Positions 10,370 through 14,935 of a stretch of DNA of 46,576 bases are shown one piece after another. The stretch comes from Paludibacteraceae bacterium (lineage in GTDB: Bacteria > Bacteroidota > Bacteroidia > Bacteroidales > Paludibacteraceae), in the NCBI GenBank assembly GCA_017430235.1, contig JAFRNH010000102.1:1-46576 (forward strand), read 5' to 3'. Both the position numbers and the translations under genes were made by a program. The stretch's first letter is position 1. The number at the start of each line of letters is the position of its first letter. The notes below the pieces were generated by a model. That model was not told the origin of the DNA. It saw only the letters and a program-made list of their open reading frames with translations, and made no database searches.

Positions 10370-12907
10370 TCAAAATTCATACTTGGAAAATCCGCAATTA
10401 GCACATATCAGACAACCTTCCTGACTTCGAACAGCTGTCTGTCCACATTTCTCGCAGACAACACCTTTCTGTTCTGTTCCATTCGGAATGTACTTTTTCA
10501 AAGAACGTTCAACACCGATCTTCCAATTGTTGATGGTTTCACTATTCAATTGCAATCCACCGACCAACTTCACCACCTGATCCAACGGCATTCCATAACG
10601 AAGCACGCCAGAAATCAGTTTAGCATAATTCCAATACTCTGGGTTGAACTTATAAGACAAACCTTCGATTGTGGTTTTGTAGCCCCTTCTATTAGAGTAC
10701 TGAAAATCATATCTGCTCTTTCCCGTTTTTTCATCAAAATTTCTAATGATTCTACCATTTTCAACGGTTTTAGGAATCAGCAATCCATCCTCATCATCAG
10801 CCAATCCTGTGAAAATCTCGTAGGGACGTCCATTCAGCAATCCGACAAAAGCAATCCACTTTTCCTTATTGTTTTGGAAACGAACCACATCAGCTTCCAA
10901 TTCTTTCGGACGAGGTTCTACACGAAAAGATTTTTCCGCATTTCCCTGTCGTCTCTCTATACTATCGAACGAATCGCCATCACAACAAGAGCCTTCTCTA
11001 TAAATTGACAGACCCTTGCAACCGCATCGCCATGCCTCTTCGCACAAATGGGCTATCGTCTCCTCCGTCGTACTCTCTGGAACCTGAATGGTCAAACATA
11101 TCGAATGGTCTATCCATTTTTGTATGCGACCCTGCATTCGCACCTTATCCATCCAGTCTATATCTTTTGCAGATGCCTTATAATAAGGGGATTCCATCAC
11201 AAAGTGATCTAATTCCATCTGAGAATAATGATTTTTCACATCATATCCCTTGGTTTGCATCCATGTCAGGAACTTAGGATGATACACTACGTGTTCTTCA
11301 TAAGAATCACCCATATCATCAACAAAATCCACATGAACATTCGAATCATTAGGATTCACCTTACATAGTCTCTGTTCAACCGGCATGTAAACGGGCTCCA
11401 TTCCTGAAGTAGTCCGACACATAAGGCTAGTCACACCCGTTGGCGAAACAGTCAAGCAAGCCACATTCCGACGTCCGACTTTCGTCATCTTATCATATAA
11501 CGCAGCATCAGCCACCTTTATTCTATTGATAAACGGATTTGTTGCTTCTTTTCCCGCGTCATACATAGAGAAGGAACCACGCTCTTCCGCCAAGTCAACC
11601 GACGACCGATATGCTTCCAACGCAATCGTCTGATGCACCTGTTCCGAGAAGTAGACTGCTTCTGGAGTTCCATAGGTCAGTCCCATAGCTGCCAGCATAT
11701 CACCTTCTGCTGTTGTACCTAGTCCTGTTCGGCGCCCCTTGATCAGTTTTTCCTTGATTTTATCCCACAGATGGAGCTCGGTTTGTTTTACATCCTTCGA
11801 TTCAGAATCAGCATCAACCTCCTTTAGTATTCGATCGACTGCTTCAATTTCCAAATCTACGACATCATCCATCACCCTTTGCATCTTACGCACATGCAGG
11901 CGTAGAAGATCAAAATCAAACTGAGCATCCCTTTCAAAAGGATTCTTCACGTATGAAAATAGATTAATCGACATGAGTCGGCAACTATCATACGAACTGA
12001 GAGGTATTCCACCATACGGACTCACAGAGACGGTTTTAAAACCTAAATCTGCGTAACAGTCAGAGACAGACTCTTTAATAATTGTATCCCAAAATAATAT
12101 CTTCACCCCCGACGATTTCCACACATTATGTGTTATTTTTTTCCACAAATTTGAAGCGGACACCTCCTTCTTGAGGTTTGTGTAATCCGACTCCACCGGA
12201 AAACGTTGTATATAGGGTGTGCCTCTCTCGGCACATTTCATAAACTCATCATCAATGCGGACAGTGACATCAACACTGTTCAGCTTTCTTTCTGTCATTT
12301 TTGTTTCAATGAACGTCTCCACATCTGGATGTTTAATTGAAACGCTCAATCCTAGTGATCCTTTCCGACCCTCTTGTTCCACTTCACGAGTAGAATTGGA
12401 ATATCGTTCCATAAAAGGTGTCAGTCCAACAGATGTCAATGCCGAATTCTTCACGCGCATTCCACGCGGAAACAAACCAGACATGTCATGACCTACTCCC
12501 CCGCCTCGTTTCATCAACTGTATCTGTTCTTCATCACTCTTTACAATGGCTCCAAAAGACTCAGTATCCTCATCTCTACCTACCACAAAATTATTGGACA
12601 GCGAAACGGTCTGATACTTATTCCCAATGCCCGTCATCAAACTGCCTTGTGGAACCAAATAACGAAAATTGCTAAATAAACCGAAAACTTCCGAAGAGGT
12701 CATGGGATTGGAGTACTTTCCCTCTATCCTGGCGATTTCATTCGCCATCCTCCTATGCATATCTTCTGGATCTTTCTCAAAAATGTTCCCAAGTGAATCT
12801 TTCAAAGCATACTTACTTACCCACACACGAGCAGCAAGCGAATCTCCTTTGAAATACAACAACGAAGCATTGTATGCCTCCTCGTATGTATACACTTGAC
12901 CATCCAT
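10370..12907 (-). CDS. nrdJ: Class II (B12-type) ribonucleotide reductase homologue with a lost active-site triad
   Basis: Over its whole 845 residues this matches the long Bacteroidales NrdJ type: YLVPQGSLMTGIG, MKRGGGVGHD, PFMERYSNSTREVEQEGRKGS, LGTTAEGDMLAAMGLTYGTPEA, SPTGVTSLM, KEKWIAFVGLLNGRPYEIFTGL, and a C-terminal zinc ribbon (CEKCG, CLICANCG). True enzymes reduce ribonucleotides using an Asn-x-Cys-x-Glu motif and a cysteine pair. Here that motif reads Ser296-Pro-Tyr298-Gly-Gly300, so Asn, thiyl-radical Cys and Glu are all replaced. The redox cysteine expected in SLSNCFV is Asn106 (SLSNNFV). Only the second redox cysteine (Cys309 in YDSCRL) remains. Substitutions were checked in the nucleotides (AGT CCG TAT GGT GGA). 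The frame has no stop or shift, so it is a likely pseudoenzyme rather than a decaying gene. The start ATG is at 12907. Confidence 0.85.
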   Translation of the reverse strand: MDGQVYTYEEAYNASLLYFKGDSLAARVWVSKYALKDSLGNIFEKDPEDMHRRMANEIARIEGKYSNPMTSSEVFGLFSNFRYLVPQGSLMTGIGNKYQTVSLSNNFVVGRDEDTESFGAIVKSDEEQIQLMKRGGGVGHDMSGLFPRGMRVKNSALTSVGLTPFMERYSNSTREVEQEGRKGSLGLSVSIKHPDVETFIETKMTERKLNSVDVTVRIDDEFMKCAERGTPYIQRFPVESDYTNLKKEVSASNLWKKITHNVWKSSGVKILFWDTIIKESVSDCYADLGFKTVSVSPYGGIPLSSYDSCRLMSINLFSYVKNPFERDAQFDFDLLRLHVRKMQRVMDDVVDLEIEAVDRILKEVDADSESKDVKQTELHLWDKIKEKLIKGRRTGLGTTAEGDMLAAMGLTYGTPEAVYFSEQVHQTIALEAYRSSVDLAEERGSFSMYDAGKEATNPFINRIKVADAALYDKMTKVGRRNVACLTVSPTGVTSLMCRTTSGMEPVYMPVEQRLCKVNPNDSNVHVDFVDDMGDSYEEHVVYHPKFLTWMQTKGYDVKNHYSQMELDHFVMESPYYKASAKDIDWMDKVRMQGRIQKWIDHSICLTIQVPESTTEETIAHLCEEAWRCGCKGLSIYREGSCCDGDSFDSIERRQGNAEKSFRVEPRPKELEADVVRFQNNKEKWIAFVGLLNGRPYEIFTGLADDEDGLLIPKTVENGRIIRNFDEKTGKSRYDFQYSNRRGYKTTIEGLSYKFNPEYWNYAKLISGVLRYGMPLDQVVKLVGGLQLNSETINNWKIGVERSLKKYIPNGTEQKGVVCEKCGQTAVRSQEGCLICANCGFSKYEF

Positions 12908-13016: not shown

Positions 13017-13049
13017 AGTTATTAACAATTTTAAAAAGTTTCCCGTTTT
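13017..13049. repeat. 33-nt direct repeat, copy 1
   Basis: Begins AGTTATTAACAATT and ends AAAAAGTTTCCCGTTTT. It matches copy 2 at 32 of 33 positions. It contains the odd palindrome GTTA-T-TAAC at its start, a shape typical of a dimeric regulator site, and abuts the predicted -33 position of the nrdJ-like promoter. Confidence 0.85.
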
Positions 13050-13082: not shown

Positions 13083-13115
13083 AGTTATTAACAATTTCAA
13101 AAAGTTTCCCGTTTT
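13083..13115. repeat. 33-nt direct repeat, copy 2
   Basis: Same orientation as copy 1 with a start-to-start distance of exactly 66 bp (about six helical turns). It differs from copy 1 only by C for T in the middle. The sequence just after it adds a partly inverted GAAAACTT. Confidence 0.85.
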
Positions 13116-13399: not shown

Positions 13400-14935
13400 A
13401 TGGAGAACGAGGCAACGAATAACAGCCACAGACGAATCTTTCGGAAAGAGAAAGAGACCAGCTACGCCAAACTGCCACCTCAAGCAGTCGATTTGGAAGA
13501 TGCCGTACTAGGAGCACTCATGTTGGAGAAAGACGCATATAGTTTAGTATGTGAAATTCTCAAACCGGAATGTTTCTATAAAGATGCAAACAGGACCATC
13601 TTCGAAGCCATCACCGAATTAGCCATAAAGCAAGAGCCAATCGACATGCTTACGGTCCAGAACAAACTTCAGCAACAAGGCAAACTGGATGAAGTGGGTG
13701 GTGCCTATCAAATCGTGAAACTAACAGCAGGTGTCTCATCCTCTGTTCATATTGAATATCACGCCAGAATTCTAGCACAGAAATCTTTGGCGCGTCAACT
13801 CATCAACTTCTCGACTGAAATTCAAAAACTAGCCTACGACGAGAAAACTGATGTGGATGATATCGTACAGAAAGCGGAAAGCGAGTTGTTCAAAATCTCC
13901 AACAATAGTTTGAAAAAGGATTTCATTCCTATTCCTCCCGTCATACAAGAGGCAATAGGTCGAATAGAGGAGGCTTCCAGAAGAACAGACGGATTGAGCG
14001 GTATCTCCAGCGGATTCCACAAACTAGACAAGATGACTTCTGGATGGCAACGTTCCGACCTCATCATCATTGCAGCACGTCCTGCCATGGGTAAAACGGC
14101 TTTCGTGCTCTCTATGGCTAGAAACATGGCGGAAATGAATGTCCCTATCGCATTGTTCTCCCTTGAAATGTCTAACGTACAATTGGTCAATCGTCTGTTG
14201 GTCAACGTATGTGAAATTCCTGCCGAGAAAATCAAAAACGGTAATCTAGAGCCTTACGAATGGGAACAACTCATGCAACGGTCTCGTACGTTGGAGAATC
14301 TTCCTATCTTCTTAGACGATTCTGCGGGTCTTTCCATCATGGAACTAAACACCAAAGCAAGACGTCTAGTAAAAGACCACAACGTTAAAATCATCATCAT
14401 CGACTACCTTCAATTGATGAACGCAAGCGGAATGAAATTCGGCAGCCGCGAGCAAGAGGTCAGCATGATCTCTCGTTCGCTCAAGCAATTAGCCAAGGAG
14501 TTGGATGTTCCGATCATTGCACTGTCTCAGTTGAACCGTGGTGTGGAGAAAACGGAAGACAAACGACCAGGATTGGCCGACCTCCGTGAGTCGGGAGCCA
14601 TTGAGCAGGATGCCGATATGGTATTGTTCATCCACCGTCCTGAATACTACAAAATAACAGAAGACAAGGTAACAGGTGAGAGTCTGGAGGGTATAGCCGA
14701 AATCATCATTGCTAAGCACAGAAATGGTGCTGTGGGTGACGTGAGACTACGATTCAAGAAAGAATTGGCTCGTTTCCAAAACTTAGAAGACGATGCGGAT
14801 CTTTCCCGCACACGCGTGCAAAGTTCCCGAATGAACAGTGTCTCCTCCTTCAACACCACGCAATCCAGCTACAACAGCAACTTCGACAATGATCCGCTAG
14901 CACAAGGTAACGGATCTTCCTCTCTTCCGTTCTAA
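13400..14935 (+). CDS. dnaB: Replicative DNA helicase
   Basis: Hexameric 5'-3' helicase that unwinds DNA at the replication fork. The N-terminal DnaB domain reads PPQAVDLEDAVLGALMLEKDAY, and the linker helix precedes a RecA-type core. That core has Walker A ARPAMGKT at residues 226-233, Walker B IIIIDYLQLM, ALSQLNRGVEKTEDKRPGLADLRESGAIEQDAD, and the arginine-finger region IIIAKHRNGAVGDV. At 511 residues it is full length, with a Ser/Asn-rich tail typical of Bacteroidetes. No intein is present. The start chosen is ATG 13400 (MENEATNN); the frame has no nearer alternative before the conserved domain. It is separated from the divergent nrdJ-like gene by 492 nt and followed by a strong terminator. 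Confidence 0.97.
   Translation: MENEATNNSHRRIFRKEKETSYAKLPPQAVDLEDAVLGALMLEKDAYSLVCEILKPECFYKDANRTIFEAITELAIKQEPIDMLTVQNKLQQQGKLDEVGGAYQIVKLTAGVSSSVHIEYHARILAQKSLARQLINFSTEIQKLAYDEKTDVDDIVQKAESELFKISNNSLKKDFIPIPPVIQEAIGRIEEASRRTDGLSGISSGFHKLDKMTSGWQRSDLIIIAARPAMGKTAFVLSMARNMAEMNVPIALFSLEMSNVQLVNRLLVNVCEIPAEKIKNGNLEPYEWEQLMQRSRTLENLPIFLDDSAGLSIMELNTKARRLVKDHNVKIIIIDYLQLMNASGMKFGSREQEVSMISRSLKQLAKELDVPIIALSQLNRGVEKTEDKRPGLADLRESGAIEQDADMVLFIHRPEYYKITEDKVTGESLEGIAEIIIAKHRNGAVGDVRLRFKKELARFQNLEDDADLSRTRVQSSRMNSVSSFNTTQSSYNSNFDNDPLAQGNGSSSLPF

Follow-up and report, generated by a model that had tools for sequence, protein, structure and literature searches.

The contig JAFRNH010000102.1 of a Paludibacteraceae bacterium (assembly GCA_017430235.1), analysed over its whole 46,576 nucleotides (the window), carries on its minus strand a gene for a homologue of NrdJ, the B12-dependent class II ribonucleotide reductase. 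The frame runs uninterrupted from 12907 down to 10370 and comprises 845 codons and a stop. An earlier reading of the letters alone, the sequence-only reading hereafter, had proposed an intact NrdJ homologue of this length, and the protein is NrdJ by descent, scoring 429.7 bits against TIGR02504 (NrdJ_Z; cut-off 399.95). Its N-terminal domain matches PF00317, and its nearest solved relatives by sequence, 1xjk and 1xje, are of the B12-dependent reductase. The reductase barrel gives 223.5 bits with PF02867 over residues 115-636 and is taken here as residues 115-640 (10988..12565). It is followed by the core of a TSCPD/IscU-like C-terminal domain (CTD; residues 666-810, 10478..10912), recognised as the part that survives alone in relatives, and by a zinc ribbon (residues 818-838, 10394..10456), all on the minus strand. 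The CTD scores 15.3 bits against TSCPD (PF12637), under the gathering cut-off of 22.8.

A working NrdJ requires the motif Asn-x-Cys-x-Glu, which holds the thiyl-radical cysteine, a redox cysteine pair at its active site and another at its C terminus, and four cysteines that bind zinc. In the alignment with relatives, codons 296-300 (12008..12022) have changed from N-P-C-G-E to S-P-Y-G-G, so that Asn296 is Ser, the radical Cys298 is Tyr, and Glu300 is Gly. The active-site redox pair 106/309 is incomplete: codon 106 (12590..12592) encodes Asn, and codon 309 (11981..11983, in Y-D-S-C-R) retains its Cys. These substitutions are the ones that the sequence-only reading had listed, but the list was incomplete, since the sixth C-terminal cysteine, codon 843 (10379..10381), has also become Tyr. 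According to Loderer et al. (2017; PMC5704485), zinc is bound by residues 818, 821, 835, and 838, and the electron-shuttling pair consists of 832 and 843. The window protein retains Cys818, Cys821, Cys835, and Cys838, and of the shuttling pair it has Cys832 and lacks its partner. Thus, the radical site and both redox pairs are broken, and the zinc ligands are intact. The loss of these residues predicts a catalytically inactive protein. The claim that the loop and zinc-ribbon motifs were kept holds for the zinc ligands and only in part for the loops: at columns at least 98.5% identical across 71 intact relatives, the residues that the protein keeps number 170 of 208 for the barrel, 36 of 38 for the N-terminal part, and 41 of 42 for the CTD. 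The altered barrel presumably still folds. Because the protein passes the TIGR02504 cut-off, automatic annotation by that model would label it a functional B12-dependent enzyme, and the organism would be credited in error with making DNA precursors by a route that needs B12.

The loss is shared by two other assemblies. Compared with the window's own genome (G000; 2.71 Mb, 88% complete), G003 (100% complete) encodes a protein that is 95% identical and has the same S-Y-G and Asn106 state, and the protein of G014 (95% complete) is 87% identical, with Ser-Cys-Gly at 296/298/300, Asn106, and Tyr843. A loss common to three assemblies is no read error, and sequence error was rejected on this ground. 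In a tree of 83 rows (six trait columns blanked; fragments under 600 residues and G044a left out), the three proteins form one clade, clade X, next to G013, whose intact NrdJ is 75% identical to the window protein. The stem branch of clade X measures 0.36, against 0.037 for this sister.

Substitution patterns point to sustained selection. Between G000 and G003, the NG86 ratio dN/dS (omega) is 0.056 overall (40 nonsynonymous and 158 synonymous differences), 0.060 for the barrel, and 0.022 for the CTD; in the NG86 and CTD pairwise estimates, pairs with saturated dS were omitted or unusable. A branch codon model fitted by maximum likelihood (14 taxa, one start, at most 60 iterations, the CTD fit ending after 15) assigns the barrel an omega of 0.024 where the enzyme is intact, 0.089 along the stem of clade X, and 0.077 inside the clade, where omega = 1 is rejected with a doubled log-likelihood difference (2dL) of 472. 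For the CTD, omega is 0.031 both in the clade and in the background, and omega = 1 in the clade is again rejected (2dL 203). Within this protein, the CTD is under tighter constraint than any other part, the barrel included. All three members share 160 of the 208 invariant barrel columns. Catalytic residues are lost and dN/dS stays well below 1, which gives good support to a pseudoenzyme under selection, as the sequence-only reading had proposed in preference to random decay; the test it had suggested, whether the altered form makes a clade of its own with dN/dS below 1, came out in its favour. Neutral decay was rejected because the frame has neither stop nor frameshift and omega = 1 does not fit.

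The same reading had suggested, as putative roles, a nucleotide or cobalamin sensor or a regulator of an active RNR. A regulator of an active NrdJ or NrdAB is not supported: the sequences of G000, G003, and G014 each contain a single PF02867 gene, with no second one and no NrdB (PF00268), and a cellular NrdJ partner to be regulated was rejected as far as these sequences go. The search for another reductase that it had proposed turned up the class III enzyme NrdD, the sole other reductase found in G000 and present once each in G003 and G014. The G000 NrdD scores 972.6 bits against TIGR02827 (cut-off 568.3) and has a glycyl-type R-V-I-G-Y motif near its end. An adjoining frame of 154 residues with C-x3-C-x2-C, which reaches 21.7 bits with Fer4_12, just under the cut-off of 22, appears NrdG-like by place and motif. 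Across 101 related genomes, the barrel was found in 84, NrdD in 59, and NrdB in none.

Loss of active-site residues recurs among these relatives. A catalytic position has changed in 12 of the 84 barrel-bearing genomes (G071 being unread at position 106), and the tree places the changes at three separate origins: clade X with three genomes, clade Y with seven, and the genus g16 with two. All 12 fall among the 44 barrel genomes that have NrdD, and none among the 40 that do not (Fisher p 2e-4, kinship ignored). Clade Y, from the same genus as the window (G001, G004, G006, G009, G010, G011, and G015), shows milder changes, with Asp300 in six of the seven, Ser106 in two, and Val298, Thr296, and Ser296 in one each. 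Some of these enzymes may still be active, and the clade offers a natural series of graded active-site intermediates. In g16, the catalytic site is unrecognisable, and 112-115 of the 208 barrel invariants are kept, against 39-40 of the 42 in the CTD. G386, of the same genus, has a like pattern in a shorter frame of 758 residues.

In many genomes of the family, the CTD stands alone. Among 358 family genomes, many of them incomplete, the CTD (query P0007) was found in 279, the barrel in 186, and NrdD in 222; low-scoring barrels were read for the genomes named here. A CTD without a barrel match occurs in 100 genomes of the 358, and thus of the 279 with a CTD; these belong to g22 (94), g9 (2), g29 (2), g10 (1), and g16 (1, a weak match). 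As the genomes are incomplete, an absent barrel match is no proof case by case, and 36 of the 100 loci were read. They hold open frames of 157-433 residues, one of them (L226) 5'-open at a contig edge and another (L232) without an ATG as cut. In 35 of these proteins (L157 left out), 73 of 158 core columns are invariant, and of 595 pairs, the 101 whose dS is usable have a median omega of 0.065. The zinc ribbon is missing from 34 of the 36; it is present in the two from g29, where both redox cysteines are gone. TSCPD PF12637 matches 33 of 35 CTDs at E up to 1, and P0005 passes the cut-off at 27.9 bits. A search for solved structures with related sequence found none (best E 0.27). PMC9669993 reports an IscU-like fold for such C-terminal domains, and its passages on them give no role.

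Gene order ties the standalone CTDs to former nrdJ loci. In g22, the order S9 peptidase, thioesterase, nrdJ occurs at four of seven intact loci (L266, L267, L268, and L272); in L269 and L271 the thioesterase alone is beside nrdJ, and L270 is situated elsewhere. Seven reduced loci show S9 peptidase, thioesterase, CTD (L255-L258, L260, L261, and L158), and two have the thioesterase only (L259 and L265). Of 30 g22 loci, 29 contain a match to the thioesterase, and the remaining one is cut. The g10 genome (G024) has an acyl-ACP thioesterase fused in frame to the CTD (L157:4435-5736, 433 residues), and in g29 the CTD is found at malQ, the site of the full-length genes in L161, L162, and L174. The standalone CTD of g22, g10, and g29 therefore occupies the former place of nrdJ. 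For the g9 CTDs, whose neighbours are surE and lpxB, there is no comparable full-length locus. Three frames look like fossils of barrel deletion: residues 1-88 of L195 match NrdJ 1-89 (34%, E 4e-13) and are joined to the CTD, and L252 and L253 have an N-terminal NrdJ remnant of 32 residues before it. No Pfam reductase domain was recognised in L195 or L253.

A tree of 128 domains (G041, with a short CTD, left out) yields six changes, namely three degenerations and three barrel losses, although its starred branches alone force fewer. The third loss is a distant copy in G559, from another order. There, a standalone CTD of 198 residues is followed directly by class I genes (L254:7313-10602), first NrdB (317 residues; PF00268, 207.5 bits) and then NrdE-prime (562 residues; TIGR02510, 716 bits against a cut-off of 602.25). 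G559 also has an 859-residue frame containing a CTD (G559:C33). A class-wide scan found the CTD in 146 of 395 genomes. Among the matches listed, nearly all frames exceed 800 residues, and a few besides that of G559 are shorter, the one in G420 (L264) lying close to a contig end. Related genomes span the series from active enzyme through selected dead enzyme to bare CTD.

NrdD accompanies these changes. In the 128-domain tree, it is present in 49 of 49 altered genomes and 35 of 78 intact ones (G559s left out of this count). The first figure is overstated, as its 30 g22 genomes were picked for at least 90% completeness and all have NrdD, and G217 (90% complete, no NrdD) is absent from them; a fair count is that 90 of the 100 CTD-only genomes have NrdD. 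Compared with full-length genomes, the CTD-only genomes are enriched in NrdD (Fisher p 2e-16, kinship ignored). The direction of this association is expected because no cell can do without a functional reductase. A statistical demonstration that loss follows NrdD was set aside, as the Fisher tests ignore kinship and independent pairs are too few.

The region upstream of the window gene links it to nrdD in another way. Two 40-nt repeats lie 66 bp apart, with copy 1 at 13018..13049 (GTTATTAACAATTTYAAAAAGTTTCCCGTTTT; read towards the gene, TGTTAATAAC) and copy 2 at 13084..13115, neither assigned to a strand. The 32-nt core, at up to three mismatches, had no match in 100 shuffles. The same repeats occur in G003 and G014 and also beside the intact gene of G013; clade Y has variants. 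In 203,975 bases from 11 loci of the genus, the 10-mer TGTTAATAAC has nine exact copies, all of them upstream of nrdJ, as are six of the seven copies of TGTTGATAAC. Of 14 genomes examined (13 of the genus's 16, and G020), 12 also have the 10-mer upstream of nrdD, where 0.0027 is expected per region, and its flanks differ between subclades. It may, at a guess, be a DnaA-box-like element: TTATTAACA differs at two of nine bases from the DnaA-box consensus TTATCCACA given in PMC8203912, which also describes control of nrdAB by DnaA in E. coli, and none of the 11 loci contains TGTGGATAAC itself. Beyond the repeats is the divergent dnaB (13400..14935, plus strand; replicative helicase, PF03796, 357.5 bits). 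The sequence-only reading had pointed to this neighbour and to the repeats. Both are real, but neither is special to the pseudoenzyme, since intact nrdJ genes of the genus have them too; a dnaB link peculiar to the altered gene was rejected, as dnaB adjoins intact nrdJ in L166, L170, and L171 (it is absent at L169). The pseudoenzyme has thus kept its ancestor's control region. No known RNA family, such as a riboswitch, was detected in the window at gathering threshold.

Taken together, these observations make it fairly probable that the window gene is a selected pseudoenzyme derived from a class II reductase and retained for a second function of its CTD that is tied to DNA-precursor supply. 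NrdD would supply deoxynucleotides in these bacteria, and because it can do so, the chemistry of NrdJ could be lost. The gene would be kept for the CTD, an IscU-like/TSCPD module of about 145 residues whose second function would be independent of the radical site and of the cysteines that shuttle electrons. A CTD that outlasts the radical site, the redox cysteines, the zinc ribbon, and the barrel cannot be kept for electron transfer to the barrel. In clade X, the dead barrel is still under selection, probably as a scaffold by which the CTD is carried or controlled, and possibly still binds nucleotides. In other lineages, the barrel would have decayed further or been deleted, leaving the CTD alone, in several genera at the same place. 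Most likely, the CTD would influence the supply of DNA precursors by acting in trans, either with the remaining reductase as its partner or upon it as a regulator, a role suggested by the 10-mer shared with nrdD and by the G559 CTD directly before class I genes. Its binding target and biochemical role are here proposed from sequence comparison. A tentative extension, which we hold to be possible rather than likely, makes the CTD a class-independent accessory factor of ribonucleotide reduction that acts in trans on the class III enzyme (in G559, on class I), with pseudo-NrdJ as its barrel-bearing form, for which a replication-linked promoter was retained.

Several observations weigh against this interpretation. 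An omega for the clade X barrel equal to that of intact branches is rejected (2dL 37), so constraint is weakened, with omega about three times the intact value. Ten CTD-only genomes, 60-90% complete, show no NrdD, and the test with independent pairs has four to five pairs and is unable to reach 0.05. NrdD occurs with neither barrel nor CTD in 57 of the 358 family genomes; the CTD is therefore dispensable in general. Most standalone CTDs have neighbours that are not known to be connected with reductases (thioesterase, malQ, and surE), and a single genome shows the order CTD, NrdB, NrdE-prime. Neither G012 nor G020 has the exact 10-mer upstream of nrdD, and the five clade Y loci that were looked at have variants of it, not the exact sequence, upstream of nrdJ. 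Longer parts of the nrdJ repeat, scored with up to three mismatches, are not enriched at the G000 nrdD locus (3 against 1.57 expected, and 1 against 1.48). The shared promoter element may also have been inherited from the intact enzyme and not yet lost.

The main rival is a CTD role outside the DNA-precursor pathway, for example in iron-sulphur or envelope metabolism, with the nrdJ place being only history. We regard this as a distinct but lesser possibility. The non-reductase genes that flank the family's standalone CTDs, where neighbours were looked at, fit such a role, as do the thioesterase fusion in L157, the 57 NrdD-bearing genomes without a CTD, and the IscU-like fold reported in PMC9669993. 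However, the thioesterase neighbour was inherited from the full-length gene, and neither the 10-mer shared with nrdD nor the G559 gene order is what an outside role would lead one to expect.

Somewhat less probable is a version in which the pseudoenzyme and the CTD function are the same but the barrel is passive ballast, constrained only against misfolding that spoils the CTD, and is being lost. The raised omega of the barrel (0.077 against 0.024) beside the unchanged omega of the CTD (0.031 in both settings) agrees with it, as do the continuing decay in g16 and the losses in g22, g9, g10, and g29. Yet an omega of 0.06-0.08 seems low for a passive fold, a judgement made with no control, and the 160 family-invariant barrel columns kept by all of clade X also speak against it. 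That the protein remains an active reductase with an unorthodox active site is very improbable. The strong constraint on the barrel and the retention of Cys309, Cys832, and much of the barrel would suit an enzyme, but all residues of the Asn-x-Cys-x-Glu motif are gone together with one cysteine of each redox pair, and NrdD is present. Moreover, the G014 protein has Cys298 without the Asn, the Glu, Cys106, or Cys843, so no common substitute is visible. Neutral decay of a gene made redundant by NrdD, to which the long stem branch might point, or a sequence error is hardly credible given three agreeing assemblies, an unbroken frame, and the rejection of omega = 1.

The proposed pseudoenzyme with a separate CTD function resembles several known systems in part. 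The dimeric, zinc-finger-bearing class II NrdJ (TIGR02504; PMC5704485) has the same length and domain order, with N-terminal domain, barrel, IscU-like/TSCPD domain, and zinc ribbon; in the window protein, other residues stand in for the radical cysteine and the neighbouring Asn and Glu, and for one cysteine in each of the two redox pairs, at the active site and at the C terminus. In split systems (NrdJa and NrdJb; PMC5704485 and PMC9669993), the C-terminal domain has its own gene, as in the CTD-only relatives. Unlike those systems, CTD-only genomes, many of them incomplete, have no detected catalytic NrdJa partner, 34 of the 36 CTDs read lack the zinc ribbon, and the two from g29 lack both redox cysteines. 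Similarity of the CTDs to TSCPD is weak yet repeated, with that of the window below the cut-off.

Ribonucleotide reductases are usually regarded as essential and strictly conserved. The R1 homologues of betaherpesviruses have lost reductase activity and keep the fold of a reductase large subunit for another role, as is proposed for the window protein. They are viral and of class I, whereas the window case is bacterial and of class II and has relatives that end in the CTD alone. Searches of the open-licence literature showed no earlier description of an inactive bacterial NrdJ under selection or of its standalone CTD. The graded genome series separates NrdJ catalysis from the second role that the CTD seems to have, and in species with the CTD alone this role can be addressed free of catalytic interference.

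Matches to the CTD also occur in phage, plasmid, and viral records, but among the phage and plasmid matches and the best 80 of 85 viral loci no standalone CTD was established on a mobile element. Nine phage records match, four of them annotated as reductase and two others being full-length matches (H1 and H2). Of two plasmid records, one is annotated as NrdJ and the other has no annotation. The best 80 of the 85 viral loci include seven frames under 600 residues, five of which are cut by a contig end; L280:4041-5522 (494 residues) and L281:4518-5540 (341 residues) are uncut. A 25-kb "Bacteriophage sp." record, MT835965.1 (L153), encodes an NrdJ with intact motifs that is 61% identical to that of the window, and the record could be a bacterial fragment.

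Some reductase genes of these genomes have unusual structures. In G012, the NrdD match is in pieces (G012:C113:124554-127860), one of them with two in-frame TAG codons, which may point to stop-codon recoding in a phage or to insertions in the gene. In G013, two NrdD pieces lie within a single open frame of 1022 residues (G013:C13:34122-36779), which could contain an intein or another in-frame insertion. Different, higher-scoring PF02867 genes are found in G330 (G330:C70:827-2347; 414 bits, 770 residues) and G134 (G134:C75:8912-10372; 368 bits, 755 residues), and that of G330 comes on top of the genome's usual nrdJ.

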